From Tetraselmis striata (lineage: Eukaryota; Chlorophyta; Chlorodendrophyceae; Chlorodendrales; Chlorodendraceae), in the NCBI GenBank assembly GCA_006384855.1, contig VCJN01003342.1, positions 1 through 64,000 on the forward strand: 64,000 bases of DNA. Direction: 5' to 3'. The translations under genes and the position numbers were made by a program. This document shows positions 111-42,399 of this stretch, piece by piece; the stretch's first letter is position 1, and every line of letters begins with the position of its first letter. The notes beneath the pieces were generated by a model. It was given only the letters and a program-made list of their open reading frames with translations, ran no database searches and was not told where the DNA came from.

Positions 111-149
111 GCAAGAAGCAGTACTCCTTACTGGAATTTGTTCTGAACT

Positions 150-313
150 AGTTTATGTGGTTTCTCTACTTGTACGAGATAGCCCTGGCACGGCGCCCGT
201 AGCGTGCGTGTGCGCGCGCACGATTGCGGGGGCCGGTCAGGGCCACTACCTGCATTCACGGCGGACCGACCGGTCACTCTCCTTTGCTGTGGCACGCTCC
301 ATCGAGCGCACAT
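150..313 (+). repeat. A1 split direct repeat of RT-type element, copy 1
   Basis: Matches A2 (2858-3035) nearly base for base: TTTCTC, CGAGATAGCC, a GCGCGCGCACGATTGCGGGG block, CGGACCGACCGGTCAC and CATCGAGCGCAC all occur in the same order. It starts just after GAACTAGTTTATG, the junction core. Confidence 0.8.
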
Positions 314-335
314 AGTGCCGCGCAGGGTGCCGGTC

Positions 336-2830
336 TTCCGCCATCGTACCATGTACGGTGAGCGTAGCCTTTCGGGCCCCCCCTGGGGAGAAACCCGTTC
401 GTTTGTGTGGTTAATGGACGCGCGCCGCTTGCGACGTGCTAACTACTACCCGCGAACGAGCTGCTGATTACTCGCCCAACGCGAGGAGAGGACGAAGCCG
501 CAGCGCTTCGTCCCCATTCAGTGGAACAAGGTCCAAGCCCTTCGACCAGTGTCGACCAACAGTAACCCCAGGCTGCCCCTTCCTGTGTGGGCATGGCTCA
601 ATCCGTACTGACCCCTACTCGACGTAGGTGTCGCGATGCGCTCCGACTTGGGCGTATGCCGACGCACGCCCGCCTTCTAGTACATATTCGAGTACAAAGT
701 GACAGTACACTGCCAGTGGCCAAGCCAGCGCCTAGTGGCACATGGCTACTCCCACGCCGCGGCACTCCTACTGTGCCGCGCACCGTGGGCCCTGACGCCG
801 ACGCGGCGAGGGCCAGCATCGCGACATATATCGCGCCAATTCATGTACTCCCGACTCCCCCTTTATGATACATCGCGTCCGTCGTAATTTCGGCAACTGG
901 CAAGCCGCTGGTGCGAATCGCAATGTTCTCAACCGGATATCCAGAGGTGTACGCGTTCCTTTCTTGGACGGGCTTGCCCCACCTTCTTTTCATCAGAGGG
1001 TGTCAATGGGGGATGCTACCCCTTCCCGATTGGAGTTTATGGACGGTGAATTGGCTCGCTTCCCGGCCGTTGGCGCAAAATGGTTGTCTATGTTGTTCTT
1101 GGTTCCTAAGCCATGAACAAACAAATGGAGGCTCGTCATTGACCTTCGCCCTATGAACTGCTATTGCGAGACGCGCTATCTTCCGTTCGAGACGCTTTCG
1201 CATTTGCGCAATCTGGCGCGCCCTGGGGACTACATGTTGCAGATGGACCCGCAGGATGGGTGTTACGCGGTTGGAATCGCCCCTGAGGACATGGACTTTT
1301 TCACTATCGATTACCGCGGCACTCAGTACCGACTGGTTGGCCTTCCCATGGGCTGGTCTCTGTCCACCTATTACTTCTGCCAATTCACCAACGTCCTCAC
1401 TAGGGCATTGCCTCGTCACCCGGCTGAAGCAGACGGCACACCTATTCCCCGGCGCCGATTTGGCCTACGCATGTTACCCTACATACATGGACGATTTCAT
1501 GTTACTAGCTCGGACTCAGGCTGAGGCCATATCTGGCAACGTGCATGACTACATCGAACGCCACTTCTCAGGATTTGGTCTATCCGCTGCGCAACCCCAA
1601 CAAGGGCGTGTGGGAGCCCACCCAAAAGCTCGTGCACCTGGGGTTAGAAAATGACACATCGGGGTCGCCTACTCTTCGTGCGCCCGCTGAGAAACTGGCT
1701 GGCATCGGTTGCGCGGCCAAACGCCTAATCCAACGAGCAAAACGCAATCGTCGGTGGCTGCCAGCTCGCTAGTTGGCCGCTCTCGCAGGCAAATGCCAGT
1801 TTCTCTACTTGGCCATCGCCCCTGCACGTTATTTCTACCTCCGTGAGCTGCATGATGTGCTCAAGACGCGCGACTCTTGGTCCGGTCGCGTCAAGCTCAC
1901 CCGCCAGCTCGAACGCGATCTGCAATGGTGGGTGGGCGTGCCAACCCAACACAACGGCCGCCCCATTAACCGCCCCGTCGAAAGCGGATACCTACACGTT
2001 GACATTTCGTCGTACGGTTGGGGTGCCTTTCTGAACGAGCACCATGAAGCTCGGGGGTTTTGGTACGACGATGACCGCACCGCGCACATTACTCTGAAAG
2101 AGCTCAAAGCCGTCCGCTTGGCTATTGAGTCCTTCCTCCCCATGCTCCGTAACCGTCACATCCGCTTGCACGAGGATAACCAAGCGGTTGTCGGCGTCCT
2201 CACCCACCTCACTTCTCGCTCTCCGCGCCTCATGGCTTAGCTACGCAAAACATGGTACCTCATGGACACATACGGCATTACCCTTTCCGTGCGCTACATC
2301 CGTTCTGCGGCAAATATCTGGGATGACCGCCTTAGTCGCGAGGTTGATTGCGACGACTGGCAGTTCAACCCTCGTCGATTCGCCTCGCTCACTACTGAAT
2401 GGGGCGCGTGCACCATCGACCGCTTCGCGACGGCTGAAAACGCCCCCTACCCCGCCACAACGCCCGCTGGCGTGACCCGCGGTGCGAGGCCGTTGACGCC
2501 TTGCGCCTCTCCGACGCTGCATGGCGTTGCGAACGTAACTGGTGTAACCCTCCATGGAACCTTATCGGCGATCTTGTCTCCAAACTGGAGTCCAGCGGTG
2601 CCCCAGCCATCGTCATTCTTCCCTACTGGCCTGACAAAGCTTGGGACCAGCTCCTCTCGGAGATATGCTCTGACCTGCGCTCCTGGAAGCCGCGCCACGT
2701 ACGACCTCTTCATTCCTGGCCGTACTAGCGACCGCCTCCCGTGGGTGCACCCCGCTGGCGTGTCGTCGCCTTCAACATTCCCACCCGTGACCCCCGCCCA
2801 TGGCCTGCTGCGCCCGGCATTTTCTAGTCG
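336..2830 (+). pseudogene. Decayed reverse transcriptase-RNase H-methyltransferase-like polyprotein (copy 1)
   Basis: Reading across frames gives the order of a DIRS-type Pol. The fingers motif WRLVIDLRPMN lies near 1130, MLQMDPQDG near 1233, YRLVGLPMGW near 1327 and the catalytic YMDD box near 1484. RNase H follows: VDISSYGWGAF near 2000, the ELKAV glutamate near 2100, EDNQAVVGV near 2172 and DRLSRE near 2327. A C-terminal block has NPPWNLIGDL near 2550 and PYWPDKAW near 2623, resembling the methyltransferase-like domain of DIRS elements. Breaks seen against the 39-42 kb copy are a frameshift near 1110, another between 1450 and 1500, a TAG near 1770 and a TAG at 2238 where the other copy has GAG. 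No intact product is expected. The N-terminal part (336-1000) has no domain I recognise. Confidence 0.85.
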
Positions 2831-2857
2831 GCAAACCAGACGTTCCTTGTGAAATGT
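2829..2857 (+). repeat. B1 repeat of RT-type element, copy 1
   Basis: The CGGCAAACCAGACGTTCC...GTGAAATG block matches B2 at 3138-3166. It is followed directly by the junction core and A2. Confidence 0.75.
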
Positions 2858-3035
2858 TCTAAACTAGTATATGTGGTTTCTCTATCTACCTGTACGAGAT
2901 AGCCTTGGCACGGCAGCGCCCGCTGCGCGTGTGTGCGCGCGCACGATTGCGGGGGCCGGTCAGGGCCATTACCTGCCTTCACGGCGGACCGACCGGTCAC
3001 TCTCCTTTGCTGTGGCACGCTCCATCGAGCGCACC
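2858..3035 (+). repeat. A2 split direct repeat of RT-type element, copy 1
   Basis: Second copy of A1 (150-313). It also preserves the empty target site for the MITE inserted in the 42-kb element: the same stretch here reads straight from CCTGACC-side to TGAAGGC-side sequence without insertion. An 18-bp C tract (3044-3061) follows. Confidence 0.8.
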
Positions 3036-3137
3036 ACAGCCCGCCCCCCCCCCCCCCCCCCGCCCCCGCCGTGGCTGTGGATTTGTATGCCTGCAAATTC
3101 CTGATTTTCACAACCTGTAACCAGACCTGGCATTCTT

Positions 3138-3166
3138 CGGCAGACCAGACGTTCCTTGTGAAATGA
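3138..3166 (+). repeat. B2 repeat and end of RT-type element, copy 1
   Basis: Repeats B1 (2829-2857) and ends in GTGAAATG. The next bases, ATCTAAACTAGTTTATGGGG, are the beginning of the Gag-YR element, so the two elements abut with no spacer. Confidence 0.75.
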
Positions 3167-3349
3167 TCTAAACTAGTTTATGGGGTTTCCATCCTTGACC
3201 TAACCGCTTTTCAGCTACAAGTGCTGCGCAGTGGTACGGGAGCTAGTAACTGTTGTTGCGCCCTTGTTGGGTGCAGCACGAGTAGACATAAAAGCAGCCA
3301 GAACAGCTGAGCCTGCCATCTTCCAGTTTTCGCTGCGTTCCACGCAGCG
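3167..3349 (+). repeat. A1 split direct repeat of Gag-YR element, copy 1
   Basis: Identical or nearly so to A2 (6061-6244): the stretch from TTTATGGGGTTTCCATCC to CGTTCCACGCAGCG is shared, after which the two diverge. It probably includes the promoter and leader of the gag transcript, whose ATG lies about 110 bp downstream. Confidence 0.85.
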
Positions 3350-3462
3350 ATGTAAAAACTGTCTCGTAACCCGTTGCGAGCAAGGTCACCCCAGGTTGTT
3401 CAAGACCACACCCGGCTCGCCATCCGAGTGTGATATTCTCGTCCGTACGTCCGTGCGTTACT

Positions 3463-4317
3463 ATGTCAGATGGAGAAGAACCCGTCGTTGAGCCGACGCT
3501 TACGTCGTTGCAAGCAGATGTGCGTGCATTGGCTACAGCTGTGGCACAATTGACGGCTCGTGATCGCGCTGTCGATGGAGAAGGGGCACATGGCTCCGGC
3601 TCCGGGCAGCGCTTCGCGGGACAGCCGACAGGCAGCGGGGGAGCCGCAGAGCGCCCCGACTTGCTAGAGCTAGCCCAGAGCGGCCGTGTCGGAGCAAAAT
3701 CCGTGAGTGCCGAGGATGATTACCTCGCGGTGCCAGAGCTACTGCAGAGAGCAGAGTCTGGTTACGAGGCCGTTCGACCGGTCAGCCGAGTGCCTGGACT
3801 TTTCCCGTTGAGCACCGACCTAACGAACGAGTACCTCAAGCAGGATGACCGGCGTCTGCCGGCCCAGGAGGAGTACTTGTGGATGTCGTGTTTCGGGGCT
3901 CACATGGCCGCCCTTTTCGTGGCGCTCGACGAGCTGCTACCTTACGTCCCCACCACTAACCAGGACTTCACCCCCTACCTCGCGAGAGCTCGGAATCACG
4001 CCGAGGCCATCGACAAGGCGTTTCGTTTCCGTCTAGCCTTCCTGCGGAGGCTGAATGAGATCAAGCGTGTGCACGGTGACCAAGGCGTTCTGGATGTGCT
4101 GCGAGCTCAGCATTTTCAGCCCGCTGCGGAGCATCTGGGTTCTGCGATTTTTGGGGACCTGATGAGAGACTACGAGCGTCGTGTCTTCGAGGCGACCGTT
4201 GCCAGCAGTGCCAAGGCGACCGCTACTTCTCGAGTAGCGGCTGCAGCTGCAGGTCGCGGGCGTGGGCGAGGACGTGGTGGTGGACGTGGACGCGGCCGCG
4301 AAGGTGAGCACGAATGA
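3463..4317 (+). CDS. Gag-like protein of YR retroelement (copy 1)
   Basis: A 284-residue ORF from the first ATG (MSDGEEP). The N-terminus is acidic with a possible short coiled coil (LTSLQADVRALATAVAQL), then a Gly/Ser-rich linker, then a helical region of about 150 residues (from PELLQRAESGYEAVRPVS to the LMRDYERRVFEA stretch), and a C-terminal Arg-Gly tail (GRGRGRGRGGGRGRGRE) typical of RNA-binding RGG boxes. No zinc knuckle is visible. Its place ahead of the recombinase and its basic tail fit a DIRS-type Gag that packages the element RNA; this is inferred from position and composition, not a recognised domain. The inverted copy at 28916-29791 is seven residues longer near the N-terminus and otherwise nearly the same, so the frame is under constraint or the copies are young. 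It ends in TGA with the recombinase in the same frame. Confidence 0.75.
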   Translation: MSDGEEPVVEPTLTSLQADVRALATAVAQLTARDRAVDGEGAHGSGSGQRFAGQPTGSGGAAERPDLLELAQSGRVGAKSVSAEDDYLAVPELLQRAESGYEAVRPVSRVPGLFPLSTDLTNEYLKQDDRRLPAQEEYLWMSCFGAHMAALFVALDELLPYVPTTNQDFTPYLARARNHAEAIDKAFRFRLAFLRRLNEIKRVHGDQGVLDVLRAQHFQPAAEHLGSAIFGDLMRDYERRVFEATVASSAKATATSRVAAAAAGRGRGRGRGGGRGRGREGEHE

Positions 4318-4356
4318 TGGCGTGGGGCGCCGCTCGTCGGAGCTGCAGGAGCCTTG
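4312..4356 (+). promoter_or_regulatory. Candidate stop-readthrough site between gag and YR
   Basis: GAA TGA TGG: the gag UGA is followed by 12 open codons joining directly to the recombinase frame. The inverted copy has GAG TGA CGG at the same place and is also open. A same-frame single stop in both copies is what gag-pol style readthrough requires. Reinitiation at the distant ATG is the alternative. Confidence 0.4.
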
Positions 4357-5979
4357 CGAGGCCACCTTTCGGTGACCGCCGCAAAACGCACCCTTGCAGC
4401 TCAACGACGGGATGAGCGCCCTGTGTCAGGACCTGACCCCCCCACCTTACAGACTTCATTTAGACCTTCCTCGGTGCGGCGCTTCTTACAGCTACAGCCG
4501 AGTGCGGCTCAACCATCCGCACACCTGCACATGGCGGCTCAACCATCCGCCTTTCTTACAACCCCATCTCTGCGTTCGTCGGTTGTTACACTACGTGTTA
4601 CAACCGGTTCGCAACGACCAAGTTTCGCGCGTGTACGTTACGCACGGGACAGGCGCTACGAGCGCGACGGGCGCGCGGGGCGGCCCTCTTACCTGAACCT
4701 AGCCCCGCAAACCCGTACTGAAGCTACTGCAAACCCGTCCAGCAACTACCGGCCAACCGCCGGGAACCTAACCGCTGCTGCCGAGTACTTTGCGGACAGT
4801 AGCCGTGCCAGTGGAACTCTGTCAGTAAAACGACGCACTTACGTAATCGACGAGCCCGCAGCTATCGCTCCATGGGCTGCGTCACTGCGATCTCGGCTGC
4901 AGGACGCTTTCGGCTCAGACGAGCTAGGCCAGCGGACGCTGGACCTGCTCTCCAGCTCCCTCAGCGCGCAAACCCTCAAGAGCTACGCCGGCAGACTGTC
5001 TCAGTTCGCTGAGTTCTGCCACGACTCCGAGAACATCAGCCCGCTGGAGGCGACTACTGCTACTGTTGTTCGGTACGTTGCCTGGATCGGGGAGCGAGGT
5101 CACATCGCAGCTAAGTCGCTGCAGCCCTACCTGTCTGCCATCAACACCTTCTTCGAGCTGCACAACCTCGTCCCGATCGCCAAGGACAGCCTACACCTCA
5201 CTTCGGCAAGGCGTGGGTTAATGTTGCGGCAGCGCCGGCTGGACGCTGCCCCCTTGCGTGTCCCTCTGCCTGCGGATGTAGCTTACCGCTTCGTCTCAAA
5301 GGCCGAGCTAATTGTGTCTGCTCCTTATCCAGAGTCCCACCTCGACTACCGAGCCCTCTTGGCTTCGGTTGTCAACTTCCTGTTCTTTGCCAGGGGCCTT
5401 ACTGGCGTCTCCTGTCGAGCGCAAGATGTACATGTCGACACCTACAACATCACCTTGCAGGTCTACCGCGAGAAGGGTCGCGCTGGCCGTCGGGGACCCG
5501 ACGACCTGCGCGTACTGCTCCTTCCGGTGTCCGAGCACCCTCGAGTGGCACGACTCTTACGCTACTTCATCGACAACGTCCAGTCTGTCCCCCTGGTTAC
5601 TGTTGGCTTGGCTGCCTCCAACTTCTGGGCTGTAAATGTGGCTGAGCAGTCAAAACCTTGGACTGCGGCTACGATGTCAGACTGGTTGTCTACAGCCGTC
5701 AACCTAGTCAACGCAGCCCCTCCTGCTGGCACTTCCTGGACTTCACACAGTCTGCGCAAGGGCGCAGCCTCTGCTGCAAACGCCATCGGAGCGCCACTGT
5801 CCCACATCCGCTACCAAGGCGGTTGGGCCACTAACTCCGATGTCGTTTTGGACTACATCGACCCCAACGTTCTTCCTTCTCCTGGCGCGTGGTTCTTCTT
5901 TGGACACATCGCCCCCCTCCGCCACTTCCAAGTCCAACAGGACTCCGCAGCGGTGGCCTTCCCAGTGCCTCCTTCATGA
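4318..5979 (+). CDS. Tyrosine recombinase of YR retroelement (copy 1)
   Basis: Open from the gag stop to TGA at 5979. The first in-frame ATG is at 4531, so either translation starts there (about 482 residues) or the frame is entered by readthrough of the gag UGA. From about 4900 it has the SAM-like core-binding region (LGQRTLDLLSSSLSAQTLKS, SPLEATTATVVRYVAWIGER) and then the phage-integrase catalytic fold. HSLRKGA at 5746 is the HxxR box, GGWATNSDVVLDYID holds the likely nucleophile Tyr at 5854, and FARGLTGVSCRAQDV near 5387 probably supplies the first catalytic Arg. The N-terminal 180 residues are Pro/Arg-rich without a known domain. This enzyme class integrates circular cDNA of DIRS, Ngaro and PAT elements without target duplication. 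About a dozen residues differ from the copy at 27254-28915; both are uninterrupted. Confidence 0.9.
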   Translation, partial: WRGAPLVGAAGALRGHLSVTAAKRTLAAQRRDERPVSGPDPPTLQTSFRPSSVRRFLQLQPSAAQPSAHLHMAAQPSAFLTTPSLRSSVVTLRVTTGSQRPSFARVRYARDRRYERDGRAGRPSYLNLAPQTRTEATANPSSNYRPTAGNLTAAAEYFADSSRASGTLSVKRRTYVIDEPAAIAPWAASLRSRLQDAFGSDELGQRTLDLLSSSLSAQTLKSYAGRLSQFAEFCHDSENISPLEATTATVVRYVAWIGERGHIAAKSLQPYLSAINTFFELHNLVPIAKDSLHLTSARRGLMLRQRRLDAAPLRVPLPADVAYRFVSKAELIVSAPYPESHLDYRALLASVVNFLFFARGLTGVSCRAQDVHVDTYNITLQVYREKGRAGRRGPDDLRVLLLPVSEHPRVARLLRYFIDNVQSVPLVTVGLAASNFWAVNVAEQSKPWTAATMSDWLSTAVNLVNAAPPAGTSWTSHSLRKGAASAANAIGAPLSHIRYQGGWATNSDVVLDYIDPNVLPSPGAWFFFGHIAPLRHFQVQQDSAAVAFPVPPS

Positions 5980-6031
5980 CTTGGCGCTACCCCTTCTCCG
6001 TCAATCCACCGCTCTCTACGTTCGCTCAAGA

Positions 6032-6060
6032 CTGGCAAAACCAGACTCAACTTTGAAATG
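6032..6060 (+). repeat. B1 repeat of Gag-YR element, copy 1
   Basis: GGCAAAACCAGAC...TTTGAAATG, identical to B2 at 6336-6364 and homologous to the B repeats of the RT-type element. Confidence 0.85.
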
Positions 6061-6244
6061 ATCTAAACTAGTTTATGGGGTTTCCATCCTTGACCTAACC
6101 GCTTTTCAGCTACAAGTGCTGCGCAGTGGTACGGGAGCTAGTAACTGTTGTTGCGCCCTTGTTGGGTGCAGCACGAGTAGACATAAAAGCAGCCAGAACA
6201 GCTGAGCCTGCCATCTTCCAGTTTTCGCTGCGTTCCACGCAGCG
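6061..6244 (+). repeat. A2 split direct repeat of Gag-YR element, copy 1
   Basis: Copy of A1 (3167-3349), beginning with the core ATCTAAACTAGTTTATG and ending at CCACGCAGCG. The B1/A2 junction reproduces the sequence formed where a circular intermediate is closed. Confidence 0.85.
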
Positions 6245-6335
6245 CCCCCCCTGACTCCGTTTTCCCTCCACGCTTTTCGCTAAACCTTCCTGCCAATTTC
6301 GGCTCTTGACCGTGTAAAACAGCCTGCGCGACCTT

Positions 6336-6364
6336 TTTGGCAAAACCAGACTCAACTTTGAAAT
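6336..6364 (+). repeat. B2 repeat, right end of Gag-YR element, copy 1
   Basis: Repeat of B1 followed by unrelated flanking DNA (TATATCAACAGAG). The 90 bp between A2 and B2 (6245-6335) is found again in the inverted copy at 26902-26995, so it belongs to the element. Confidence 0.8.
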
Positions 6365-6560
6365 GTATATCAACAGAGCAAGCCGCCGCCTAAAAGCGGC
6401 GCCCGCATCATCCCGCACGAAGCGGTACATCAGGAGGTACTGGTGTGAATTACAAAAAGGGCAGTAACAAAACCATCTACTGCTAAAAGTAGTACTAAAA
6501 ATCAACACAGCAAGCCGCCCGCATCCCGCATGCTGAGGCGGGATGTGGATGAGTGATGTG
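6365..6560. repeat. Dispersed repeat with GC-rich inverted repeat
   Basis: Contains two diverged copies of CAACASAGCAAGCCGCC followed by AAAGCGG/GCATCCCGCAT palindromic sequence, and GTACTGGTGTGAATTACAAA. The same modules occur inverted at about 42890-43110. It is non-coding, and looks like a small non-autonomous element or a satellite remnant. Confidence 0.55.
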
Positions 6561-7834
6561 GAATTGTGGATGATGCGCTCAGGGCTCTGAGTCCGGGCCA
6601 CGCGTGCACGTGCACGTGCGTGTGAGGGTACATCAGCAGGTACTGCTGGTACAGGTACGCGCGGCCCGTATCAGCACAACGGCGGCGCGTCGTGTGGACG
6701 GCGGTAGCAGTTGTTGCGGTATAATAGTAAATACCACCGAATGAGAACAGTATGAGAAGCTATGCGATGATGACTCGATATCAAACCGATGGGCCCGGAA
6801 GTAACTGCTACGACGGTCCGTAGCGCGACCCCCCGACCCGCTCTTCCACTCTTTGCGACTGTATGCCGGACCCGCTCCCTCCTCCCGAGGCCCGGTTCCG
6901 CCACACCAAGCCAGCAGACCGCCCACGGAATCCGGAGCGAGCCGGGCCTAGGTCGAGGACATCCCCTCAACGCCCCTCTCTCTGCGCCACGAGTGCTGAC
7001 GAGCGCCGGTTGACGATTATGTGTGCGTCGTATCAGAATATTAAGGTACGGTAAGCCTCCGTTTTAAGGAGGTAAAGAACGACCAGCTCCGACTCTGCCT
7101 GGCCCGCCACTGGCGTGGTGAGTCGTGTCAGAAGTCTGCAAGACTGCGTTCACGCTTTCCGCAGGGTAGGTGAGCAGGGATACGTGTAGGCGGCGCCTTC
7201 GTCTTTGGCATCCGCTGCCGCCTCTGGGAGCCAATCGCGTTGACCCCCCTCGGCTCGCGCTTCTGCGTCCTGTATGTACTTCGAGTGCGGATTTACCCGC
7301 ACCCTTCAGTAGGCGCCGCGCGGATGCTCCGACATGGGGCCCCGTTCCCCTCAGATAACTTGCAGACAAATAATTAGTCCATCGGGGTGGCTGATGCGCC
7401 TCAGCCACCTTTTGTTCTCAATGCGCCCTCCGCGGCTGCCCACACTAGAGGTTACTCTCTCTCCCTCCCCCTTTCCCTCTCCCCCTCTTCCTCTTCCTCT
7501 ATCGCTCTGTCGCTCGCTCTACTTTGACTCGCGCCGCAGCGCCACCAGTTCCGGAAGTCTCCTGTTCGGTTATCACGTCAGTTCACAGCGTGACAAGCGC
7601 TTGAGCGTGACAGCGTGGCGGAAGTATTTGAGCTTGCATGAGCGTTTGCGCTTTTCACTTTGCATGCGCTTGAGCGTTTGCAGCGTGGCAAGCGCCCGAG
7701 TGCTGACCGAGCGCCCGCTGCTCTGCATGCAGGCCAAACGCGTCTCCCTCAACTTGAAGCTGGGTGAGGCGTCCAACCGGTGCAGTCAGTCCGCCTTTGG
7801 AAGGCCATCACTACGGTACACGCCGCTGAACAGG
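6561..7834. other. Non-coding region upstream of the ShK-cyclophilin gene
   Basis: No convincing gene. A GTGCACGTGCACGTGC palindrome lies near 6604, a CT-rich tract at 7455-7520 and clustered imperfect repeats of GCGCTTGAGCGT/GAGCGTTTGCG at 7588-7700. The last two directly precede the gene at 7835 and are candidates for its promoter region; this is inference from position only. Confidence 0.35.
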
Positions 7835-9924
7835 ATGAACAGAAGCGGCGTAGTCATAGCGCTGGTGCTTGCTGGGCTTTCTGCGGCGTATGGGTTGTCG
7901 GAGGAGCAGCTGCAGCAACTGGGATTGGGGACAGGCCCCCCCGAAGGTGCGCGCCGGGCGGTGGCTGCTGCGTCTCCTCAGGGACTCGCGGGGTGGGAGG
8001 GTGCCATCCCTCTTGTGAGCGCTGGCGCGTGCGTGGCCGCGCAGTGCAAGACCACTGCGCCGACAGCAGCAACTACTGCCGGGAGTGGGCGCTGCGGGGG
8101 GAGTGCGACCGGAACCCTAGGTACATGCTGCAGGGGTGCCGGAAGTCGTGCAAGCGGTGCATCCCAAAGCATGTGCGACCCATGCCCCCCCCCCCCCCCC
8201 CCCCTCTCAAAGAAACGCCACCCCCACCGATATGCCTGATGCATCGTGTAGACCTGTGCCTCCTCCTATCTATGCTCCAGACGGACGGCACCCGCAATGG
8301 CGGTATTGAAAGTGAGGTGCATTTTATAAACGTGCGGGCTGACAGCGGGTTGCGATGCTGCAGGAAGACTTGTTTCTGCAGGATTCCAGGCAGATCCGGC
8401 TGCACACCTCGTATGGCACGGTACGAGCCATACGCCCCTGCGGAAGCACGCCATGCATGCCACCGGGAGGCACGCCTTGCTCATTCCACCCACGGTGGCG
8501 CTCATCGACTGCGGTGCCCTGCAGATTGCGATCAACATCTACCGCACCGCGGCCCCGAAGACGACGTACAAGCTGCTGCACATTGCCCAGCGCGGCGCCC
8601 GTGGGTGCACCCGCTGCAAGATCTACCGTGCCGAGGGCAATGAGGTGGTGCGCTGCACTGTCCTTCCCCGATGCCCGCAGTGCCTGCCGCGGCGTGTCGG
8701 TCACTTTCCTCTGGGCACCAGTGCTGACACCGGCGGGATAACGCCGCTCTTTGCTCTGCCCATCACCCCGACAGACCTATGCCTCCGGTCACCACGGGCA
8801 AGGCCTGCTGCAGGGCACCTTTGCCAGCCTCAATGACGCCCCAAGCCTCGAAGGAAACCTGGCAGTGAGGTATGCCAGCGTGTCTCACCAACTAAGACAG
8901 CGGCCGCGTGTACCCATCCCTTTTGATCAGTGCGCTGCTGCCTCCGACTCGGCCGCTGGCGTTGTACTGATAGACGGGCCCCGACACTCGGCCAGGCGAG
9001 GGCATGTGGCGCTGCTGCCCAACACGCGGGAGTTTATCATCGCACTGCGGGATCACCCGGAGTTTGGACTCGCGCACACTGTGTTTGGAGAGGTAACGCC
9101 AATCGCGCCATTAACAACCGGAGGGAAGAGCTCGCCACATGATGGCCCCCCGCGGCCGCTCACCCGCGCTCTCGCTGTGCACCCATGTGCTGCAGATCGA
9201 TGCCCAATCGCAAGCGGTGGTGGATGCCATCGCCGGTCAGCCCGGGAAGGAGTTCAGCCACCCAGTCTACGGAAACCCAATGCGCATTCTGCAAGACGAC
9301 GTGCCCTTCACTGTGGACGCCTTCAAGCCGGGAGCCCCCTCCGCAGCTGACATCCGCAAGGCGGAGAATCTCGCAAGGTGCCCCCCTAATGCCGGCACTG
9401 CCTGCTCATTCACTGCATGACCTGCGGCATCAGCCTGACTCGAGATGCTGTTTGCGGTGGCTCATGTCTGTCGTGATGTCCGCCCCCCCGGCATGAGCAG
9501 GCACCGAGCCACGCACCTCAACATGACCTTGCCAGAAATGAGCGCCAAGGGGATGTTGGATGACCTGGTTGAGACTGGGCTGAACATCACCAGGCTGCTG
9601 GAGTCCGAACAAGCTGCAAGCAGCCCCGCCCCTCCTGCCGCGGATAGGATGGAGCAGGTTGAATCGAATACACAGAGTGCGTCGAGTCCTCACAAACTGT
9701 CTCCCTCAGACGATGAGGTCAATGAGCACAGCACTGGCGGTGAGCTTGCCGTGGGCGCTGCTTCCAGCTCGGGCGCGCAGAAGGGCGCTGGCGACACGCA
9801 AGAAGAGGAGGATCCGGAGGCTGGCGAAGTTCCCCGCAAAGACTACCTGCCACTCAATGCCAAGCATGACATCGCGCATGTGTACACACCCCGCGAAGAC
9901 GTCATCCCCATGGATAAAGCATGA
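7835..9924 (+). CDS. Secreted ShK-domain cyclophilin-like protein
   Basis: Eight exons splice in phase to 404 residues: 7835-7946, 8045-8172, 8364-8420, 8525-8644, 8775-8869, 8996-9092, 9196-9377, 9501-9924. Residues 1-21 form a signal peptide (MNRSGVVIALVLAGLSAAYG). Residues 42-76 form a ShK/SXC module with six cysteines in the pattern C-C-GEC-NPRYM-C-SC-C. From about 81 the chain follows the cyclophilin-like fold: IRLHTSYGT, IYRTAAPKTTYKLLHIAQRG, the family-variant CTRCKIYRAEG, then GLLQGTF, EGNLAVRRGHVALLPNTREF and HPEFGLAHTVFGE. The usual catalytic FHR motif is not obvious, so isomerase activity is doubtful. The C-terminal 140 residues are acidic and low-complexity, ending VIPMDKA. Secretion or the ER lumen is the likely location. 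Alternative exon 3 starts (8364 or 8382) keep the frame. Confidence 0.8.
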
Positions 9925-26183: not shown

Positions 26184-26870
26184 CGCTGCTACCTACTGCC
26201 TCCACTCAGTTGCTGTCCAAATGACCGTACAGGTGTTCAGAAATAAGTTTACTGGTCAACGCCGGACATGTGGGTAATATTGGACAAGGGGTTGGTGGCT
26301 GAGGTTGGAAAGGACGCTGTTGGGGGCGAAGCTCCGTAGCTCCCCTTGCGCTGCCATGCTGCGCGATCAAGTTTCGCGGCCATCGGTCCGGGGGATCGAT
26401 CGCCACGTCGGCGCGCGTGACCGACGTGCGTGCTGCCGCCTGCTTCCTGACGAGGCGGGTGCATCCCCATATAGACAGTGGCGCGTGCTGACACGCGCAG
26501 AGGCCGGCGGAGCTGGGCCGCCCACCGCACAGCCCACCCCCAGGTCCCATACAGTAAGTAGAATATGTAGTAGAATACTGTATACGTGAAGCGCAACAGC
26601 AAAAGGGATGAGCGCTATGGTCTAGACAGTTGGCTAAGTAGTAGCTGCAGGCAGGCAGGGAAACAGGTCGGGAGCTGGTGCGGTCGCGAGTCCGCTGCTC
26701 ACTGTCCCATCCTGGAAGATTCTAGACAGAGCCGATGACTGGCTGCTGTGATATATTTTCCAGGTGGTAGTCGTTCGACCGCACAACTCGGTCCGTCGTC
26801 TGACTAAACTCAGTTAAGTACTTAACAACGAATAGCTACGTGAGCTAGCTGCAAGAGGCGATCCATATGT
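26184..26870. other. Spacer between Ca2+-ATPase and Gag-YR element
   Basis: No gene recognised. It should contain the promoter and 5' UTR of the ATPase; no distinct motif was found. Confidence 0.4.
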
Positions 26871-26872
26871 TT

Positions 26873-27201
26873 CAAAGTTGAGTCTGGTTTTGCCAAAAAG
26901 GTCGCGCAGGCTGTTTTACACGGTCAAGAGCCGAAATTGGCAGGAAGGTTTAGCGAAAAGCGTGGAGGGAAAACGGAGTCAGGGGGGGCGCTGCGTGGAA
27001 CGCAGCGAAAACTGGAAGATGGCAGGCTCAGCTGTTCTGGCTGCTTTTATGTCTACTCGTGCTGCACCCAACAAGGGCGCAACAACAGTTACTAGTTCCC
27101 GTACCACTGCGCAGCACTTGTAGCTGAAAAGCGGTTAGGTCAAGGATGGAAACCCCATAAACTAGTTTAGATCATTTCAAAGTTGAGTCTGGTTTTGCCA
27201 G
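26873..27201 (-). repeat. B2-A2-B1 repeats of Gag-YR element, copy 2
   Basis: B2 26873-26901, A2 about 26998-27172 and B1 27173-27201 (plus-strand coordinates) reproduce the right-end arrangement of copy 1, including the unique spacer between A2 and B2. The matching A1 is at 29907-30091. Confidence 0.85.
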
Positions 27202-27253
27202 TCTTGAGCGAACGTAGGGAGCGGTGGATTGACGGAGAAGGGGTAGCGCCAAG

Positions 27254-28915
27254 TCATGAAGGAGGCACTGGGAAGGCCACCGCTGCGGAGTCCTGTTGGA
27301 CTTGGAAGTGGCGGAGGGGGGCGATGTGTCCAAAGAAGAACCACGCGCCAGGAGAAGGAAGAACGTTGGGGTCGATGTAGTCCAGAACGACATCGGAGTT
27401 AGTGGCCCAACCGCCTTGGTAGCGGATGTGGGACAGTGGCGCTCCGATGGCGTTTGCTGCAGAGGCTGCGCCCTTACGTAGACTGTGTGAAGTCCAGGAA
27501 GTGCCAGCAGGAGGGGCAGCGTTGACTAGGTTGACCGCTGTAGACAACCAGTCTGACATCGTAGCCGCAGTCCAAGGTTTTGACTGCTCAGCCACATTGA
27601 CAGCCCAGAAGTTGGAGGCAGCCAAGCCAACAGTAACCAGGGGGACAGACTGGACGTTGTCGATGAAGTGATGCAAGAGACGTGCCACTCGAGGGTGCTC
27701 GGACACTGGAAGGAGAAGTACGCGCAGGTCGTCGGGTCCCCGACGGCCAGCGCGACCCTTCTCGCGGTAGATCTGCAAGGTGATGTTGTAGGTGTCGACA
27801 TGCACATCTTGCGCTCGACAGGAGACGCCAGTAAGGCCCCTGGCAAAGAACAGGAAGTTGACAACCGAGGCCAAGAGGGCTCGGTAGTCGAGGTGGGACT
27901 CTGGGTAAGGAGCAGACACAATTAGCTCGGCCTTTGAGACGAAGCGGTAAGCTACATCCGCAGGCAGAGGGACACGCAAGGGGGCAGCGTCCAGTCGGCG
28001 CTGCCGCAACATTAACCCACGCCTTGCCGAAGTGAGGTGTAGGCTGTCCTTGGCGATCGGGACGAGGTTGTGCAGCTCGAAGAAGGTGTTGATGGCAGAC
28101 AGGTAGGGTTGCAGCGACTTAGCTGCGATGTGCCCTCGCTCCCCGATCCAGGCAACGTACCGAACAACAGTAGCAGTAGTCGCCTCTAGCGGGCTGATGT
28201 TCTCGGAGTCGTGGCAGAACTCAGCGAACTGAGACAGTCTGCCGGCGTAGCTCTTGAGGGTCTGAGCGCTGAGGGAGCTGGAGAGCAGGTCGAGCGTCCG
28301 CTGGCCTAGCTCGTCTGAGCCGAACGCGTCCTGTAGTCGGGATCGCAGTGACGCAGCCCACGGAGCGATAGCTGCGGGCTCGTCGATTACGTAAGTGCGT
28401 CGTTTTACCGACAGAGTGCCACCGGCACGGCCACTGTTCGCAAAGTACTCGGCAGCAACGGTTAGGTTCCCGGCGGTTGGCCGGTAGTTGCTGGACGGGT
28501 TTGCAGTAGCTTCAGTACGGGTTTGCGGGGCTAGGTTCAGGTAGGAGGGCCGCCCCGCGCGCCCTTCGCGCTCGTAGCGCCTGTCCCGTGCGTAACATAC
28601 ACGCGCGAAACTTGGTCGTTGCGAACCGGTTGTAACTCGTAGTGTAACAACCGACAAACGCAGAGATGGGGTTGTACGAAAGGCGGATGGTTGAGCCGCC
28701 ATGTGCAGGTGTGCGGATGGTTGAGCCGCACTCGGCTGTAGCTGTAAGAAGCGCCGCACCGAGGAAGGTCTAAATGAAGTCTGTAAGGTGGGGGGGTCAG
28801 GTCCTGACACAGGGCGCTCATCCCGCCGTTGAGCTGCAAGGGTGCGTCTTGCGGCGGTCACCGAAAGGTGGCCTCGCAAGGCTCCTGCAGCTCCGACGAA
28901 CGGCGCCCCACACCG
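27254..28915 (-). CDS. Tyrosine recombinase of YR retroelement (copy 2)
   Basis: Open from the gag TGA to the stop at 27254, same length as copy 1. It retains the HSLRKGA box, the GGWATNSDVVLDYID tyrosine segment and the SAM-like N-terminal DNA-binding region. Substitutions against copy 1 are scattered (for example RYFID to HHFID, LQVYRE to LQIYRE) and none touches the catalytic boxes. The first in-frame ATG again lies well inside the frame, so readthrough from gag is plausible here too. It would recombine circular cDNA at the TCTAAACTAGTTTATG core, by inference from the element ends. Confidence 0.9.
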   Translation of the reverse strand, partial: RCGAPFVGAAGALRGHLSVTAARRTLAAQRRDERPVSGPDPPTLQTSFRPSSVRRFLQLQPSAAQPSAHLHMAAQPSAFRTTPSLRLSVVTLRVTTGSQRPSFARVCYARDRRYEREGRAGRPSYLNLAPQTRTEATANPSSNYRPTAGNLTVAAEYFANSGRAGGTLSVKRRTYVIDEPAAIAPWAASLRSRLQDAFGSDELGQRTLDLLSSSLSAQTLKSYAGRLSQFAEFCHDSENISPLEATTATVVRYVAWIGERGHIAAKSLQPYLSAINTFFELHNLVPIAKDSLHLTSARRGLMLRQRRLDAAPLRVPLPADVAYRFVSKAELIVSAPYPESHLDYRALLASVVNFLFFARGLTGVSCRAQDVHVDTYNITLQIYREKGRAGRRGPDDLRVLLLPVSEHPRVARLLHHFIDNVQSVPLVTVGLAASNFWAVNVAEQSKPWTAATMSDWLSTAVNLVNAAPPAGTSWTSHSLRKGAASAANAIGAPLSHIRYQGGWATNSDVVLDYIDPNVLPSPGAWFFFGHIAPLRHFQVQQDSAAVAFPVPPS

Positions 28916-29791
28916 TCACTCGTGCTCACCTTCGCGGCCACGTCCACGTCCGCCGCCACGTCCTCGCCCACGCCCGCGACCTGCAACTGCAGCCGCCACT
29001 CGAGAAGTAGCGGTCGCCTTGGCGCTGCTGGCAACGGTCGCCTCGAAGACACGACGCTCGTAGTCCCGCATGAGGTCCCCAAAAATCGCGGAACCCAGAT
29101 GCTCCGAAGCAGGCTGAAAATGCTGGGCTCGCAGCACGTCCAGAACACCTTGGTCACCGTGCACACGCTTGATCTCATTGAGCTTCCGTAGGAAGGCCAA
29201 ACGAAACCGAAACGCCTTGTCGATGGCCTCGGCGTGATTCCGGGCTCTCGCGAGGTAGGGGGTGAAGTCCTGGTTGCTGGAAGGGACGTAGGGCAGTAGC
29301 TCGTCGAGCGCCACGAAAAGGGCGGCCATGTGAGCCCCGAAACACGACATCCACAAGTACTCCTCCTGGGCCGGCAGACGCCGGTCATCCTGCTTGAGGT
29401 ACTCGTTCGTTAGGTCGGTGCTCAAGGGGAAAAGTCCAGGCACTCGGCTGACCGGTCGAACGGCCTCGTAACCAGACTCTGCTCTCTGCAGTAGCTCTGG
29501 CACCGCGAGGTAATCATCCTCGGCACTCACGGATTTTGCTCCGACACGGCCGCTCTGGGCTAGCTCTAGCAAGTCGGGGCGCTCTGCGGCTCCCCCGCTG
29601 CCTGTCGGCTGTCTCGCGAAACGCTGCCCTGAGCCGGAGCCATGTGCCCCTTCTCCATCAACAACGCGATCACGAACCGTCAATTGTGCCACAGCTGTAG
29701 CCAGCTCTCGCAGTAATGAAGACTGGGCCCTCATATCTGCGTGCAGCGACTGCAACGTCGGCTCAGCGACGGGTTCTTCTCCATCTGACAT
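28916..29791 (-). CDS. Gag-like protein of YR retroelement (copy 2)
   Basis: 291 residues from ATG 29791 (MSDGEEPVAEP) to TGA 28916. Domains are as in copy 1: putative N-terminal coiled coil, here longer by seven residues (RAQSSLLRELATAVAQL), a helical core and a C-terminal Arg-Gly tail. The extra residues complete a leucine-rich heptad pattern that copy 1 has lost, so copy 2 may be closer to the ancestral form. The downstream recombinase is in the same frame after the single TGA. Confidence 0.75.
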   Translation of the reverse strand: MSDGEEPVAEPTLQSLHADMRAQSSLLRELATAVAQLTVRDRVVDGEGAHGSGSGQRFARQPTGSGGAAERPDLLELAQSGRVGAKSVSAEDDYLAVPELLQRAESGYEAVRPVSRVPGLFPLSTDLTNEYLKQDDRRLPAQEEYLWMSCFGAHMAALFVALDELLPYVPSSNQDFTPYLARARNHAEAIDKAFRFRLAFLRKLNEIKRVHGDQGVLDVLRAQHFQPASEHLGSAIFGDLMRDYERRVFEATVASSAKATATSRVAAAVAGRGRGRGRGGGRGRGREGEHE

Positions 29792-30163
29792 AGTAACGCA
29801 CGGACGTACGGACGAGAATATCACACTCGGGTGGCGAGCCGGGTGTGGTCTTGAACAACCTGGGGTGACCTTGCTCGCAACGGGTTACGAGACAGTTTTT
29901 ACATCGCTGCGTGGAACGCAGCGAAAACTGGAAGATGGCAGGCTCAGCTGTTCTGGCTGCTTTTATGTCTACTCGTGCTGCACCCAACAAGGGCGCAACA
30001 ACAGTTACTAGTTCCCGTACCACTGCGCAGCACTTGTAGCTGAAAAGCGGCTAGGTCAAGGATGGAAACCCCATAAACTAGTTTAGATCATACATAGTCG
30101 CTATAGTCGCGTCAGCGATAAAATAGCGAAGTACCCGCCGTATTGAATCTTTGAACTTTTTGG

Positions 30164-35945: not shown

Positions 35946-36058
35946 TATTCAGCTACCCCCGCCGTGTGCGCGACATGTGATGGCGAAAGTTCCGAAGAGC
36001 CGGTACAGACTGACCACGAAGGAAGCACGAATTCCGGGCGGAAGGAGCGCCAGGGAAG
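35946..36058 (-). pseudogene. Repeat-borne ORF fragment, split by the hAT element
   Basis: The reverse frame FPGAPSARNSCFLRGQSVPA, ALRNF, SRTRRG aligns with FPGGPSAPTSCFLRGQSV, ALRNF, SRTRRG on the plus strand at 58225-58350. The hAT target site lies inside this ORF; the other part continues at 38840-38870. It is an old transposon-derived protein of unknown type. Confidence 0.5.
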
Positions 36059-38265: not shown

Positions 38266-39221
38266 CAGCCATCAGAAAGGGGGGGGGGCAAAGTCAGCAA
38301 ATGTGTTGTAGTGTGTGTGTGTGTGTGTGGGGGGGGGGGGGACACCACATATGTTTTGGCTTTGATCAGGAGCACAGCTCCGTTGCAGTGCTGTCCTCCG
38401 CCATCGCCTCGTCCGCCATCTCCGCTGCGCCCTGCTTCGCGGCAGACTGGTCTCCCTCCATCATATAATTGACGAAGAGTGACGAGAGGAGGATGACAGG
38501 TAGTGGTGCCTGGGTGAGCGTGAAGTGAGGATAGGTTCGGCTGGTGTGTATGGTCTACTGGTCTGTGCCCCGATGCGGCGCGACGTGTGATGGTACGAGC
38601 GAGTACGGTACGGTGCTATCCGCGGCGCTCCGACCGCCGGAACCGTCGCCATATGGCTTATTATCATTGGCGGGCGCCATCCAAACGTTATACAGTGAGA
38701 TTTGGGGCACTTTGGGTAACTGCGCTGCAGCCCCTTTTCGGGAAGTACTGCAGGCTGCAGTGCATTAGCTTAACTGCAGGCTGCATTTACTGCAGCCTGC
38801 CGTGCAGTCGATACTGATGCAACCCAACCCGGTGCGCACGGCAAGCTACACCGATTTGTCTTAGCATACTGGCATTTTTTCGTAATTCACACCACTACCG
38901 ACCGCATCATCAAGCGGTCGCTGATTCAGCATTTCACAAGGAACGTCTGGTTTTCCGAACAATTCCAGGTCTGGTTACAGGTTGTGAAAATCAGGAATTT
39001 GCAGGCAGACAAATCCACAGCCCGGGGGGGTTGGGCGGGCTGTGGTGCGCTCGATGGAGCGTGCCAAAGTAAAGGAGAGTGACCGGTCTGTCCGCCGTGA
39101 AGGCAGGTAGGGGCCCTGACCGGCCCCCCGCAATCGTGCGCGCGCACACGCGCGCTACGGGCGCTGTGCCATGGCTATCTCGTACATGTAGAGAAACCAC
39201 AAAAAACTAGTCTAGAACATT

Positions 39222-41860
39222 TCACAAGGAACGTATGGCTTGCCGACTAGAAAATTCCGGGCGCAGCAGGCCATGGGCGGGGGTCACGGGTGGGAATGTT
39301 GAAGGCGACGACAGGCTAGCGGGGTGCACCCACGGGAAGACGGTCGCCAGTACGGCAAGGAATGAAGAGGTCGTGGCGCGGCTTCCAGGAGCACATGTCA
39401 GAGCACATCTCTGAGAGGAGCCGGTACCAAGCTTTGTCAGGCCAGTAGGGAACAATCACGATGGCTGGGGCACCACTGGACTCCAGTTTGGAGACAAGAT
39501 CGCCGATGAGGTTCCATGGAGGGTTACACCAGTTACGTTCGCAACGCCACGCAGCGTCGGAGAGGCGCAAGGCGTCGACGGCCTCACACCGCGGGTCACG
39601 CCAACGGGCGTTGTAGCGGGGTAGGAGGGCGTTTTCAGCCGTCGCGAAGCGGTCGATGGTGCAAGCGCCCCATTTAGCAGTGAGCGAGGCGAATCGACGA
39701 GGGTTGAACTGCCAATCGTCGCAATCAACCTCGCGACTTAGGCGGTCCGCCCAGATATTCGCCGCAGAACGGATGTAGCGCACTGAAAGGGTAATGCCGT
39801 GCGTGTCCATGAGGTACCATGTTTTGCGTAGCTCAGCCATGAGGCGCGGAGCGCGAGAAGTGAGGTGGGTGAGGACGCCGACAACCGCTTGGTTATCCTC
39901 GTGCAAGCGGATGTGACGGTTACGGAGCATGGGGAGGAAGGACTCAATAGCCAAGCGGACGGCTTTGAGCTCTTTCAGAGTAATGTGCGCGGTGCGGTCA
40001 TCGTCGTACCAAAACCCCCGAGCTTCATGGTGTTCGTTCAGAACGGCACCCCAACCGTACGACGAACTACATAGTGCATATAGTGTACCATAGTGCACAT
40101 AGTGCACTGTCAACGTGTAGGTATCCGGTTTCGACAGGGCGGTTAATGGGGCGGCCGTTGTGTTGGGTGGGCACGCCCACCCACCATTGCAGATCGCATT
40201 CGAGCTGGCGGGTGAGCTTGACGCGGCCGGACTAAGAGTCACGCGTTTTGAGCACATCATGCAACTCGCGGAGGTAGAAACGGGCAGGGGCGATGCCCAA
40301 GTAGAGAAACTGGCATTTGCCCGCGAGAGCGGCCAAGCAACTCGCGAGCCGGCAGCCACCAACGATTGCGTTTTGCTCGGTGGATTTAGGCGTTTTGCTG
40401 CGCGAGCAATGCCATGGAGTTTCTCAGCAGGCGCACGAAGAGTAGGCGACTTCGATGTGTCAACTTCTAACCCCCGGTGCACGAGCTTATAGGTGGGCTC
40501 CCACACGCCCTTGTTGGGGTTGCGCAGCAGACCAAATCCCGAGAAGTGGCGTTCGATGTAGTCACGTTGCCAGATGGCCTCAGCCTGAGTCCGAGCTAGA
40601 AACAGGAAATCGTTCTTGTACGGTAACATGCGTAGGCCAAATCGGCGCCGGGGAATAGGTGTGCCGTGTGCTTCAGCCGGGTTACGACGCAATGCCCTAG
40701 TGAGGACGTTGGTGAATTGGCGGAAGTAATAGGGGGACAGAGACTAGCCCTTGGGAAGGCCGGCCAGTCGGTACAGAGTGCCGCGGTAATCGACCGTGAA
40801 AAAGTCCTTGTCCTCAGGCGCGATTCCAACCGCGTAAAACCCATCCTGCGGGTCCATCTGCAACATGTAGTCCCTAGGGCGCGCCAGATTGCGCAAATGC
40901 GAAAGCGTCTCGAACGAAAGATCGCGCGTCTCGCAATAGCGGTTCATGGGGCGAAGGTCAATGATGAGCCTCCATTTGTTTGTCGCATGCTTAGGAACGC
41001 TAACCAAGAACAACAGAGACACCCATTTTGCGCAGTTGCCTCGCTCCCATGCCCCGACGGCCAAGAAGCGAGCCAATTCACCGTCCATAAACTCCAATTG
41101 GGCAGGGGTAGCATCCCCCATTGACACCCCCTGATGAAAAGAAGGTGGGGCAAGCCCGTCCAAGAAAGGAACGCGTACACCTCTGGAGATCCAGTTGAGA
41201 ACACCGCGATTCGCACCAGCGGCTTGCCAGTTGCCGAGATTACGACGGACACTATGTCTCATAAAGGGGGAGTCGGGAGTACAGGAATTGGCGCGATGGA
41301 TGTCGCGAGGGGGGCGAGCAAAGCGCCATGTCGCTCTGCTGGCCCTCTCCGCGTCGGCGTTAGAATCCACGGTGCGCGGCACAGTAGGAGTGCCGCGGCG
41401 TGGGAGTAGCCATGTGCCACCGGGCGTTGGCTTGGCCACTGGCAGTGTACGGTCACTTTGTACTCGAATCTGTACTAGACGGCGGGCGTGCGTCGGCATA
41501 TATACGCCCCAATCGGAGCGCATCGCAACACCTACGCCGAGTAGGGGCCAGTACGGATCGAGCCATGCCCACACGGGAAAGGGCAGCCAGCAGGGGTAAT
41601 TGTTGGTCGACACTGGTTGAAGGGCTTGGACCTTGTTCCACTGAATGGGGAAGCGCTGCGGCTTCGTCCCCTCCTCGCGTTGGGCGAGTAATCGGCAGCT
41701 CGTTCGGGGGTAGTAGTTAGCACGTCGCAAGCGGCGCGCGTCCATTAACCACACAAACCCTAACGGGTTTCTCCCCAGGGGGGGGGGCGAAAGGCTTCGC
41801 TCACCGTACATGGTACGATGGCGGAAGACCGGCACCCTACGCGGCAAAATTGCCGCGACT
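39222..41860 (-). pseudogene. Reverse transcriptase-RNase H-methyltransferase-like polyprotein (copy 2)
   Basis: Longer open frames than in copy 1: one from the A1 region to 40744 and one from 40692 to 39316. The first carries KWRLIIDLRPMNRYCETRDL, MLQMDPQDGFYAVGI and YRLAGLPKG, then a TAG at 40744. The second carries IPRRRFGLRMLPYKNDFLFL, RNase H (ELKAVRLAIESFLPMLRNRH, EDNQAVVGV, ADRLSRE) and the NPPWNLIGDL/PYWPDKAWYRLL block. The catalytic YMDD of copy 1 is replaced by YKND, which removes one catalytic aspartate, so this RT is dead even apart from the stop. An inserted CATAGTGCATA tandem (about 40070-40110) also disturbs RNase H. Confidence 0.85.
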
Positions 41861-41942
41861 TTGCTATGGTGCGTGGGCTCGATGGAGCGTGCCACAGCAA
41901 AGGAGAGTGACCGGTCGGTCCGCCGTGAAGGCATGTAGTGGC

Positions 41943-42285
41943 CAGGGTTGGGCTGCAGTCCACTTTCCAGGTACTGCAGGCTGTAGTGCAGGCTGCAATG
42001 CAGGCTGCGGTCAGCATGCTGCAGTACTGCAGGCTGCATGCATGTTGTATTGCAGGTTGCAGTGCAGGCTGCAGTCAACAGGCTGCAGTGCAGGCTGGAG
42101 TAGCACTGAAACTGTTGATTATAGATAGGGAAGGGCGGGACAGAGAAGGGCATATATGTGGGGCACTTTGGGTAACTGCACTGCAGCCCCTTTTCGGGAA
42201 GTACTGCAGGCTGCAGTGCAGTAGCTTAACTGCAGGCTGCAGTTTCTGCAGTCCGCAGTGCAGTAGATACTGCAGCCCAACCCTG
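41943..42285 (+). mobile_element. hAT MITE inserted in the A1 repeat
   Basis: 343 bp bounded by GTAGTGGC (41935-41942 and 42286-42293). Terminal inverted repeats are CAGGGTTGGGCTGCAG and CTGCAGCCCAACCCTG. Inside are many CTGCAG units able to form a long hairpin. The empty site is preserved in the A repeats of the same element family (for example near 2970 and near 260), which proves the insertion. No coding capacity. Confidence 0.9.
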
Positions 42286-42399
42286 GTAGTGGCCCTGACC
42301 GGCCCCCGCCATCGTGCCCGCGTGCACGCGCGCTACGGGCGCCGTGCCAGGGCTATCTCGTACAGGTAGAGAAACCACATAAACTATATATATGGTTTA

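Follow-up and report, generated by a model that had tools for sequence, protein, structure and literature searches.

A putative bipartite tyrosine-recombinase retrotransposon of the PAT/TOC type in the green alga Tetraselmis striata

How might a tyrosine-recombinase retrotransposon spread if none of its units carries all of its genes? The question is raised by a 64-kb stretch of the Tetraselmis striata genome (the window, i.e., the whole stretch of DNA that was analysed), which holds two units with intact frames for Gag and a tyrosine recombinase (YR) and two decayed units with reverse transcriptase (RT), RNase H (RH) and methyltransferase (MT) sequences. Repeat and similarity searches found split repeats in the order A1...B1-A2-B2 in all four (4/4). 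They bore out an earlier note on the window, which had placed RT-RNase H-MT and Gag-YR on separate units, each present twice. In the copies examined, the genes are split in this way. The sequences suggest that both kinds of unit probably belong to one bipartite PAT/TOC-type retrotransposon, the halves of which would complement each other in trans.

Two kinds of unit with matching ends

The Gag-YR units are 96.2% identical across 3222 bp and have open frames of 315 and 322 amino acids for Gag and 553 amino acids for YR (Table 1). Their A1 and A2 repeats are identical over 191 nt in unit 1 and 99% alike in unit 2. The RT units are 88% identical across 3062 bp. In RT unit 1, A1 begins at 141-143 and the last base of B2 is 3165; the unit proposed in the earlier note is present, and its borders are refined from 150-3166 to 141-3165. 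Its coding sequence is broken, with pieces lying in different frames, and RT unit 2 carries a TAG (40744) as well as YKND in place of the YMDD of T. striata gene model P0125. Both RT copies in the window are decayed and dead, a detail that goes beyond the earlier note.

The RT unit matches the Pfam families RT_RNaseH (0.006), Dam (0.0052) and RVT_1 (0.044), all below curated cut-offs; its homologues carry PF00078 and PF17917, and several from metagenomes PF05869. An MT-like domain following RT-RNase H, as in PAT/TOC elements, was found in the RT unit only, and the directly oriented YR of such elements in the Gag-YR unit only. The YR frame contains a SAM-like domain (PF02899, 5.6e-8), a sub-threshold Pfam integrase match and a weak alignment to Cre spanning its HxxR, W and Y positions. 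Its best protein match was a T. striata gene model with 100% identity over 80% of the query, and its profile retrieved no solved structure at 0.01. For Gag, no Pfam family and no zinc finger were found, and the predicted structure is of low confidence (mean predicted local distance difference test score, pLDDT, 45). No relatives were found among the viral and genome contigs searched.

Comparison of Gag-YR units 1 and 2 showed that Gag and YR are under purifying selection. In the YR domain there are 26 synonymous and 3 nonsynonymous changes, giving a ratio of nonsynonymous to synonymous substitution rates (dN/dS) of 0.038, and the value for Gag is 0.13, both from this one pair of copies. Residues 1-186 of YR are near neutral (dN/dS 0.78), as expected if this stretch is a spacer or intron. 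The RT pair in the window gave a dN/dS of 0.56 for two dead copies, which fits dead copies of once-constrained genes.

Both kinds of unit, which make up the split family (family 1), are marked by the core CTAAACTAGTTTATG and have about 27 bp in common both where A starts and where B ends. Gag-YR unit 1 shares with both RT units 27 bp at the A start and a 48-bp stretch across the B1-A2 junction that is 83% identical (E 6e-8). Outside the ends, matches between RT and Gag-YR units do not exceed 25 bp at E 0.005-0.017, the others being worse, and are chance-like. The local alignment scores of the shared A stretch and the shared B stretch were each matched in 0/5000 base shuffles. The two kinds have the same repeat order, related B repeats and the same core, as the earlier note had stated. 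The RT and Gag-YR kinds therefore have matching recombination sites and little else alike.

In the window, A1 of Gag-YR unit 1 begins exactly at the B2 end of RT unit 1. We rejected the reading of 141-6365 as one element: the ends of each unit are complete, and both kinds are also found by themselves at other places in the window and genome, so that we read the adjacency as a neighbouring insertion. Such an arrangement would be the expected product of a recombinase recognising the core of the RT unit, although a single case may be coincidence. The junction word occurs at five places in the genome, once exactly (in the window itself) and four times with one mismatch. At one of the latter, on contig C348, an RT-kind B with one mismatch adjoins a Gag-YR-kind A, in agreement with the independent list of A starts; the three others, on contigs outside that list, may be internal junctions of RT units.

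Genome-wide arrangement of the two kinds

The T. striata assembly that was searched comprises 224,097,584 bases (224 Mb) in 2903 contigs, the window lying on contig 2695. Exact A-start words occur 230 times for the RT kind and 801 times for the Gag-YR kind (0 for a reversed-word control), and the common core 1958 times. Spacings below refer to the first 100 places of each of these three lists, and searches for loci (with RT, YR, Gag, chimeric and sister-family queries) to the best, and only scored, among thousands of candidates.

The distances between A1 and A2 (same strand, below 12 kb) fall into narrow classes. For the RT kind (n = 32), 29 are at 2683-2802 bp and the others at 3073, 3437 and 9500 bp, i.e., 31/32 pairs lie at 2683-3437 bp, with a peak at 2763 bp. 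For the Gag-YR kind (n = 47), 45 are at 2696-2930 bp, with a peak at about 2895-2925 bp, and the others at 968 and 11537 bp; for the common core (n = 31), 28 are at 2012-2949 bp and the others at 8812, 10980 and 11537 bp. All three lists are empty from 3.44 to 8.8 kb. For a joined unit we would expect a distance of some 4.6 kb or more, since the A repeats are 4617 bp apart in a decayed joined Gag-RT-RH-MT-YR element at locus L008 (8731-3773, minus strand), which has A1...B1-A2-B2 ends of its own that are unlike the family-1 core. The spacings listed for both kinds across the genome led us to reject a chance deletion in two local copies, in agreement with what the earlier note had argued.

RT coding sequence sits inside RT units and YR inside Gag-YR units. 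This was examined for the 39 of 89 RT loci and 10 of 78 YR loci on contigs covered by the lists. An RT-kind A2 core lies 104 bp downstream of 27 of the 39 RT loci, and A1 lies upstream of 27, at 2.6-3.3 kb in 26 and at 9.4 kb in one; both repeats were found at 23/39 and neither at 8/39. The YR loci have A2 downstream in 10/10 and A1 upstream in 9/10.

Proximity of the genes was assessed with 90 RT, 78 YR and 126 Gag loci listed, the last two representing about 184 distinct Gag-YR loci; the decayed RT unit 1 of the window, which is in line with the abutting Gag-YR unit, is outside the 90. None of the 90 RT loci was in line with any of the ~184 Gag-YR loci within 15 kb. The one RT/Gag-YR pair within 15 kb is convergent and 1 kb apart, against a chance expectation of 1.5 pairs within 10 kb. 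Gag and YR are separated by 3-9 bp in 19 pairs, which leaves no space for an RT between them; same-strand Gag/YR combinations within 12 kb number 24, and the five beyond these 19 join neighbouring units. With a chimeric gene model joining Gag, part of YR and RNase H/MT as query, Gag or YR adjoined RT at 0/57 scored loci, the matches at all of them being confined to the RNase H/MT part. As a control, a search of this type with a protein of a joined sister family found YR within 3 kb downstream at 26/53 loci, a count from part of 126 rows that omits first-part-only matches, one short YR row and contig C1173, where RNase H and YR matches overlap.

For the copies examined, spacings, proximity and the 0/57 result rule out Gag, YR and RT as separate frames in one unit, for which protein models alone were insufficient. 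Joined Gag-RT-RH-YR copies bearing these repeats, which the earlier note had set in advance as the finding that would overturn it, were not encountered genome-wide among the listed copies.

Gene models give a similar picture. A protein search with YR listed 120 of 351 matches, nearly all T. striata models. Gag lies beside YR in 109/120 and the RT of family 1 in 0/120. One of the 120 includes a short stretch of RNase H belonging to another family, and one an RVT_1 domain without a match to family-1 RT. Models of family-1 RT, in six listed clusters (one of 77 members), are without Gag and YR except for the chimera P0130. In sister family 2, RNase H/MT is joined to YR in 19/21 YR-bearing models, several also with Gag, in a search that admitted proteins of 461-1468 amino acids and thereby favoured joined models. 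As joined sister families occur in the same genome, the division belongs to family 1. In a tree of RTs from T. striata and metagenome proteins only, family-1 RT falls among these, its nearest neighbours not being firmly resolved.

RT frames are open for 760-763 amino acids, with zero internal stops, at 29/57 scored loci. Many RT loci score equally, which points to a recent spread, and the numerous near-identical copies suggest that both kinds have been active recently. Tandem Gag-YR units with a period of about 2915-2924 bp occur on C2249, C348 and C2200, as would be expected of a recombinase acting on resident copies or multimers.

Table 1. Features of the two kinds of unit in the window, with positions, strand and basis of assignment
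Feature	Position	Strand	Basis
RT unit 1 (A1 - RT-RNase H-MT - B1-A2-B2), decayed	141..3165	+	repeats, tblastn pieces, broken frames/stops
A1 of RT unit 1, first letters TTCTGAACTAGTTTATG	141..311	+	repeat search, unit comparison
RT-RNase H-methyltransferase-like coding remnants, RT unit 1	820..2824	+	tblastn of P0004/P0003/P0125
B1 of RT unit 1	2826..2856	+	repeat/similarity search
A2 of RT unit 1	2857..3034	+	repeat search
B2 of RT unit 1, abuts A1 of Gag-YR unit 1	3138..3165	+	repeat search, junction pattern
Gag-YR unit 1 (A1 - Gag - YR - B1-A2-B2), open frames	3165..6365	+	repeats, genome searches
Gag-like open reading frame (ORF) from MSDGEE, RG-rich tail, Gag-YR unit 1	3463..4314	+	ORF; 29% identity to Gag part of joined sister-family model P0193
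Tyrosine recombinase frame, Gag-YR unit 1; YR domain ~residues 187-553	4318..5976	+	Pfam PF02899 5.6e-8, weak Cre alignment, dN/dS 0.038
B1 of Gag-YR unit 1	6034..6060	+	similarity search
A2 of Gag-YR unit 1	6058..6244	+	repeat search; identical to A1 over 191 nt
B2 of Gag-YR unit 1	6339..6365	+	similarity search
Gag-YR unit 2	26868..30088	-	96.2% identical to Gag-YR unit 1
YR frame of Gag-YR unit 2 (553 aa)	27254..28915	-	ORF, Pfam, tblastn
Gag frame of Gag-YR unit 2 (322 aa)	28916..29884	-	ORF, tblastn
RT unit 2, A1 interrupted by insert with inverted ends	38930..42395 (end approximate)	-	88% identical to RT unit 1
RT (3' part)-RNase H-MT frame, RT unit 2, motif YKND	39316..40743	-	ORF, Pfam, comparison with P0125
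N-terminal + RT (5' part) frame, RT unit 2, TAG at end	40744..42225	-	ORF

Other repeats surround or interrupt these units. A DNA transposon with inverted ends AGGGTTGGGCTGCAG lies at 37314-38816, and we take it to be hAT-like from the look of its coding remnant; a short relative at ~41945-42290, with a target duplication resembling GGCCACTAC, interrupts A1 of RT unit 2. Next to Gag-YR unit 2, at 26585-26835, is an A-type repeat of the kind seen in the joined element L008, to whose repeats it is about 89% identical. A short interspersed repeat beside several insertions (50-110, 6420-6520 and 42900-43110) recurs in L006, L010, L011 and L026 and is possibly a preferred target. Diverged, satellite-like clusters of direct repeats of 85-109 bp, spaced mostly at 180-380 bp, occupy 32977-35954, and an inverted 92-nt pair (14369-14460 and 58717-58808) matches L005 and L008 with both arms.

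The locus L001 contains a nest at 1024-9952 with a family-1 A core, an element resembling a long terminal repeat (LTR) retrotransposon (repeats 1647-2240 / 4296-4595 + 5626-5925; an inverted-repeat element is nested in it), a family-3-like exon start and the 3' half of a Gag-YR unit. This chimeric copy hints at possible contact between the templates of different families. We rejected the idea that a large joined element begins with the A core at L001:1032 because the span holds the LTR-like element, the nested inverted-repeat element and the family-3-like piece; RT queries gave no match in L001 at E 1e-4. The L001-kind core and an L021-like core pattern occur twice each.

Division of labour and rival explanations

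In no copy examined do Gag, RT-RH-MT and YR lie within one element as in PAT/TOC retrotransposons, nor does either unit encode all proteins, as one partner of an autonomous/non-autonomous LTR pair does. Each unit alone is thus no full PAT element, though the pair may work like one. The RT unit (A1 to A2 about 2.76 kb) would provide RT-RNase H with a Dam-like MT domain, and the Gag-YR unit (about 2.9 kb) Gag and YR. Both units would be transcribed, and Gag from the one would package the RNAs of both. The enzyme of the RT unit would then copy both RNAs, the ends being restored via the internal B1-A2 block, to yield circles with the junction GAAATG-(A/T)TCTAAACTAGTTTATG, and YR would recombine circles of both kinds into short matching sites. 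Shared packaging, one RT for both RNAs, one YR for both kinds of circle and a mutual need are the most likely reading of the sequences, and exchange of proteins in trans, with neither half mobile without the other, appears to fit them best. We lean towards regarding the element as obligately bipartite, i.e., as two families with matched ends and many copies that divide Gag and recombinase from reverse transcriptase with no undivided master, like a segmented virus.

Several observations weigh against this reading. Because scoring was confined to the best candidates and listing to the first 100 places of a pattern, a joined copy, if rare, could escape detection, and the flank length scored per candidate in the comparison of 0/57 with 26/53 loci is not specified. 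The 9500-bp spacing of the RT list stands out, its RT locus on C943 having an A1 core 9.4 kb upstream; the spacing of 11537 bp is the same place in the Gag-YR and general lists, and those of 8812 and 10980 bp occur in the general core list. For RT matches on C1006 and C1208, which may represent a single locus in duplicate, the next RT-kind core lies not 104 bp but about 5.7 kb downstream, likely owing to an insertion, although a joined unit is conceivable. In gene model P0130, Gag is fused to a truncated YR and RNase H/MT; its best genomic match is an RT without YR beside it. The A repeat differs at only 1-2 sites between copies, and because it varies so little, the likeness of A1 and A2 is a weak sign of reverse transcription. 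Joined families 2 and 3 could also supply the lacking proteins, and dependence of one unit on the other is more than sequence can establish.

An undivided autonomous parent with the same ends, rare, missed or unassembled, would make both units parasitic deletion derivatives. Autonomous/non-autonomous pairs are outlined for LTR retrotransposons (PMC11302176, PMC9744471), the assembly is in 2903 contigs, and a handful of long A-A spacings, together with the C1006/C1208 locus, leave some room for such a parent. We nevertheless consider such a parent unlikely. Pattern, spacing, proximity and RT-flank searches of the genome did not find it among the best or first-listed copies: the gap from 3.44 to 8.8 kb is empty in the first 100 places of all three lists, and neither Gag nor YR adjoins RT at the 57 scored loci. 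Furthermore, the genes left in a deletion derivative should be without selection, whereas purifying selection acts on Gag and YR in a unit that lacks RT (dN/dS 0.13 and, for the YR domain, 0.038), which is not expected of passengers.

Dependence might also run one way, with the Gag-YR unit moving by itself as YR-driven, Crypton-like DNA, the RT unit borrowing its YR, and RT serving RT-unit RNA only. YR is the integration enzyme, and tandem Gag-YR units with a period of about 2916 bp on C2249 and C348 fit a YR acting on circles or resident copies. Cryptons, however, are YR DNA transposons without RT that are not known to carry Gag or a split-repeat block. The Gag-YR unit lacks RT, yet it retains Gag under selection and the A1...B1-A2-B2 block typical of retrotransposition, and exact A cores of its kind are 3.5 times as numerous as those of the RT kind, which does not easily follow from cut-and-paste alone; one-way dependence is in our view very unlikely. 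We likewise regard as very unlikely that the lacking functions are supplied mainly by sister families 2 and 3 instead of the partner unit. Joined families with Gag, RT, RH, MT and YR are indeed present in the genome, and the family-3-like exon start upstream of the Gag-YR 3' half in L001 suggests template switching between families. However, within the range C1-C158 the family-1 A core is absent from the four contigs carrying the five listed family-3 loci and does not occur within 10 kb of the three family-2 loci there, the ends of the joined L008 element are unrelated to family 1, and family-1 RT and YR frames are open in many copies.

Comparison with known systems

A bipartite element would stand closest to green-algal PAT-like retrotransposons. 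According to the descriptions in PMC4157794, PAT elements have an MT and split direct repeats, Toc3 has a direct YR and no zinc finger, and Kangaroo an inverted YR. The TOC3/PAT-like elements of Chlorophyta (order DIRS) thus share with family 1 the A1-B1-A2-B2 repeats, RT-RNase H with MT, a direct YR and a Gag in which no zinc finger was found (PMC4157794). As described there, they carry Gag, RT-RH-MT and YR in one element, whereas T. striata family 1 has them on two. Kangaroo of Volvox carteri, likewise a PAT element with split direct repeats and MT, differs by its inverted YR, internal repeats between MT and YR, and its organisation as one element (PMC4157794). In the open-licence literature we found no paper on point on a bipartite or two-component retrotransposon, none on DIRS retrotransposons in Tetraselmis, and, by title, none on point on non-autonomous DIRS elements, all of which are weak absences.

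TOC1 and TOC2 of Chlamydomonas, a group put forward in the earlier note as the nearest precedent, are non-autonomous derivatives of YR retrotransposons with common ends, and the kinetoplastid SIRE is likewise such a derivative. SIRE is described as a short truncated version of VIPER (PMC6681497). It differs on that account from T. striata, where both parts are protein-coding and Gag and YR are under selection.

Multipartite viruses distribute complementary genes over separately moving segments with common ends. The T. striata units differ in being non-viral and integrated in the nuclear genome. If the bipartite reading is true, ideas on how selfish elements evolved to cooperate and how segmented genomes arose could be tested within one algal genome, including what keeps separately moving halves in step, why they do not rejoin by recombination and how cheaters are excluded. 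It would also serve as a warning that scoring elements as dead for lack of a gene can overlook active systems.

Partnerships between elements are also known from cereals. In wheat, as outlined in PMC11302176, Quinta supplies Gag to complete Cereba, and Sabrina and WHAM are grouped with the complete Wilma (PMC9744471); RLG_Cereba/RLG_Quinta and RLG_Wilma/Sabrina/WHAM are thus, likewise, families with matching ends in which one gives Gag to others. BARE2 of barley, paired with BARE1, similarly lacks a protein that is presumably borrowed (PMC9744471). As far as these accounts go, the wheat pairs are LTR rather than YR elements and one partner is complete, whereas neither T. striata unit was found complete, and in BARE2/BARE1 one gene is lost in one partner with no complementary split of genes. 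The cereal partnerships so described pair a complete with a defective element; in T. striata, two defective halves seemingly form one working system at high copy number.

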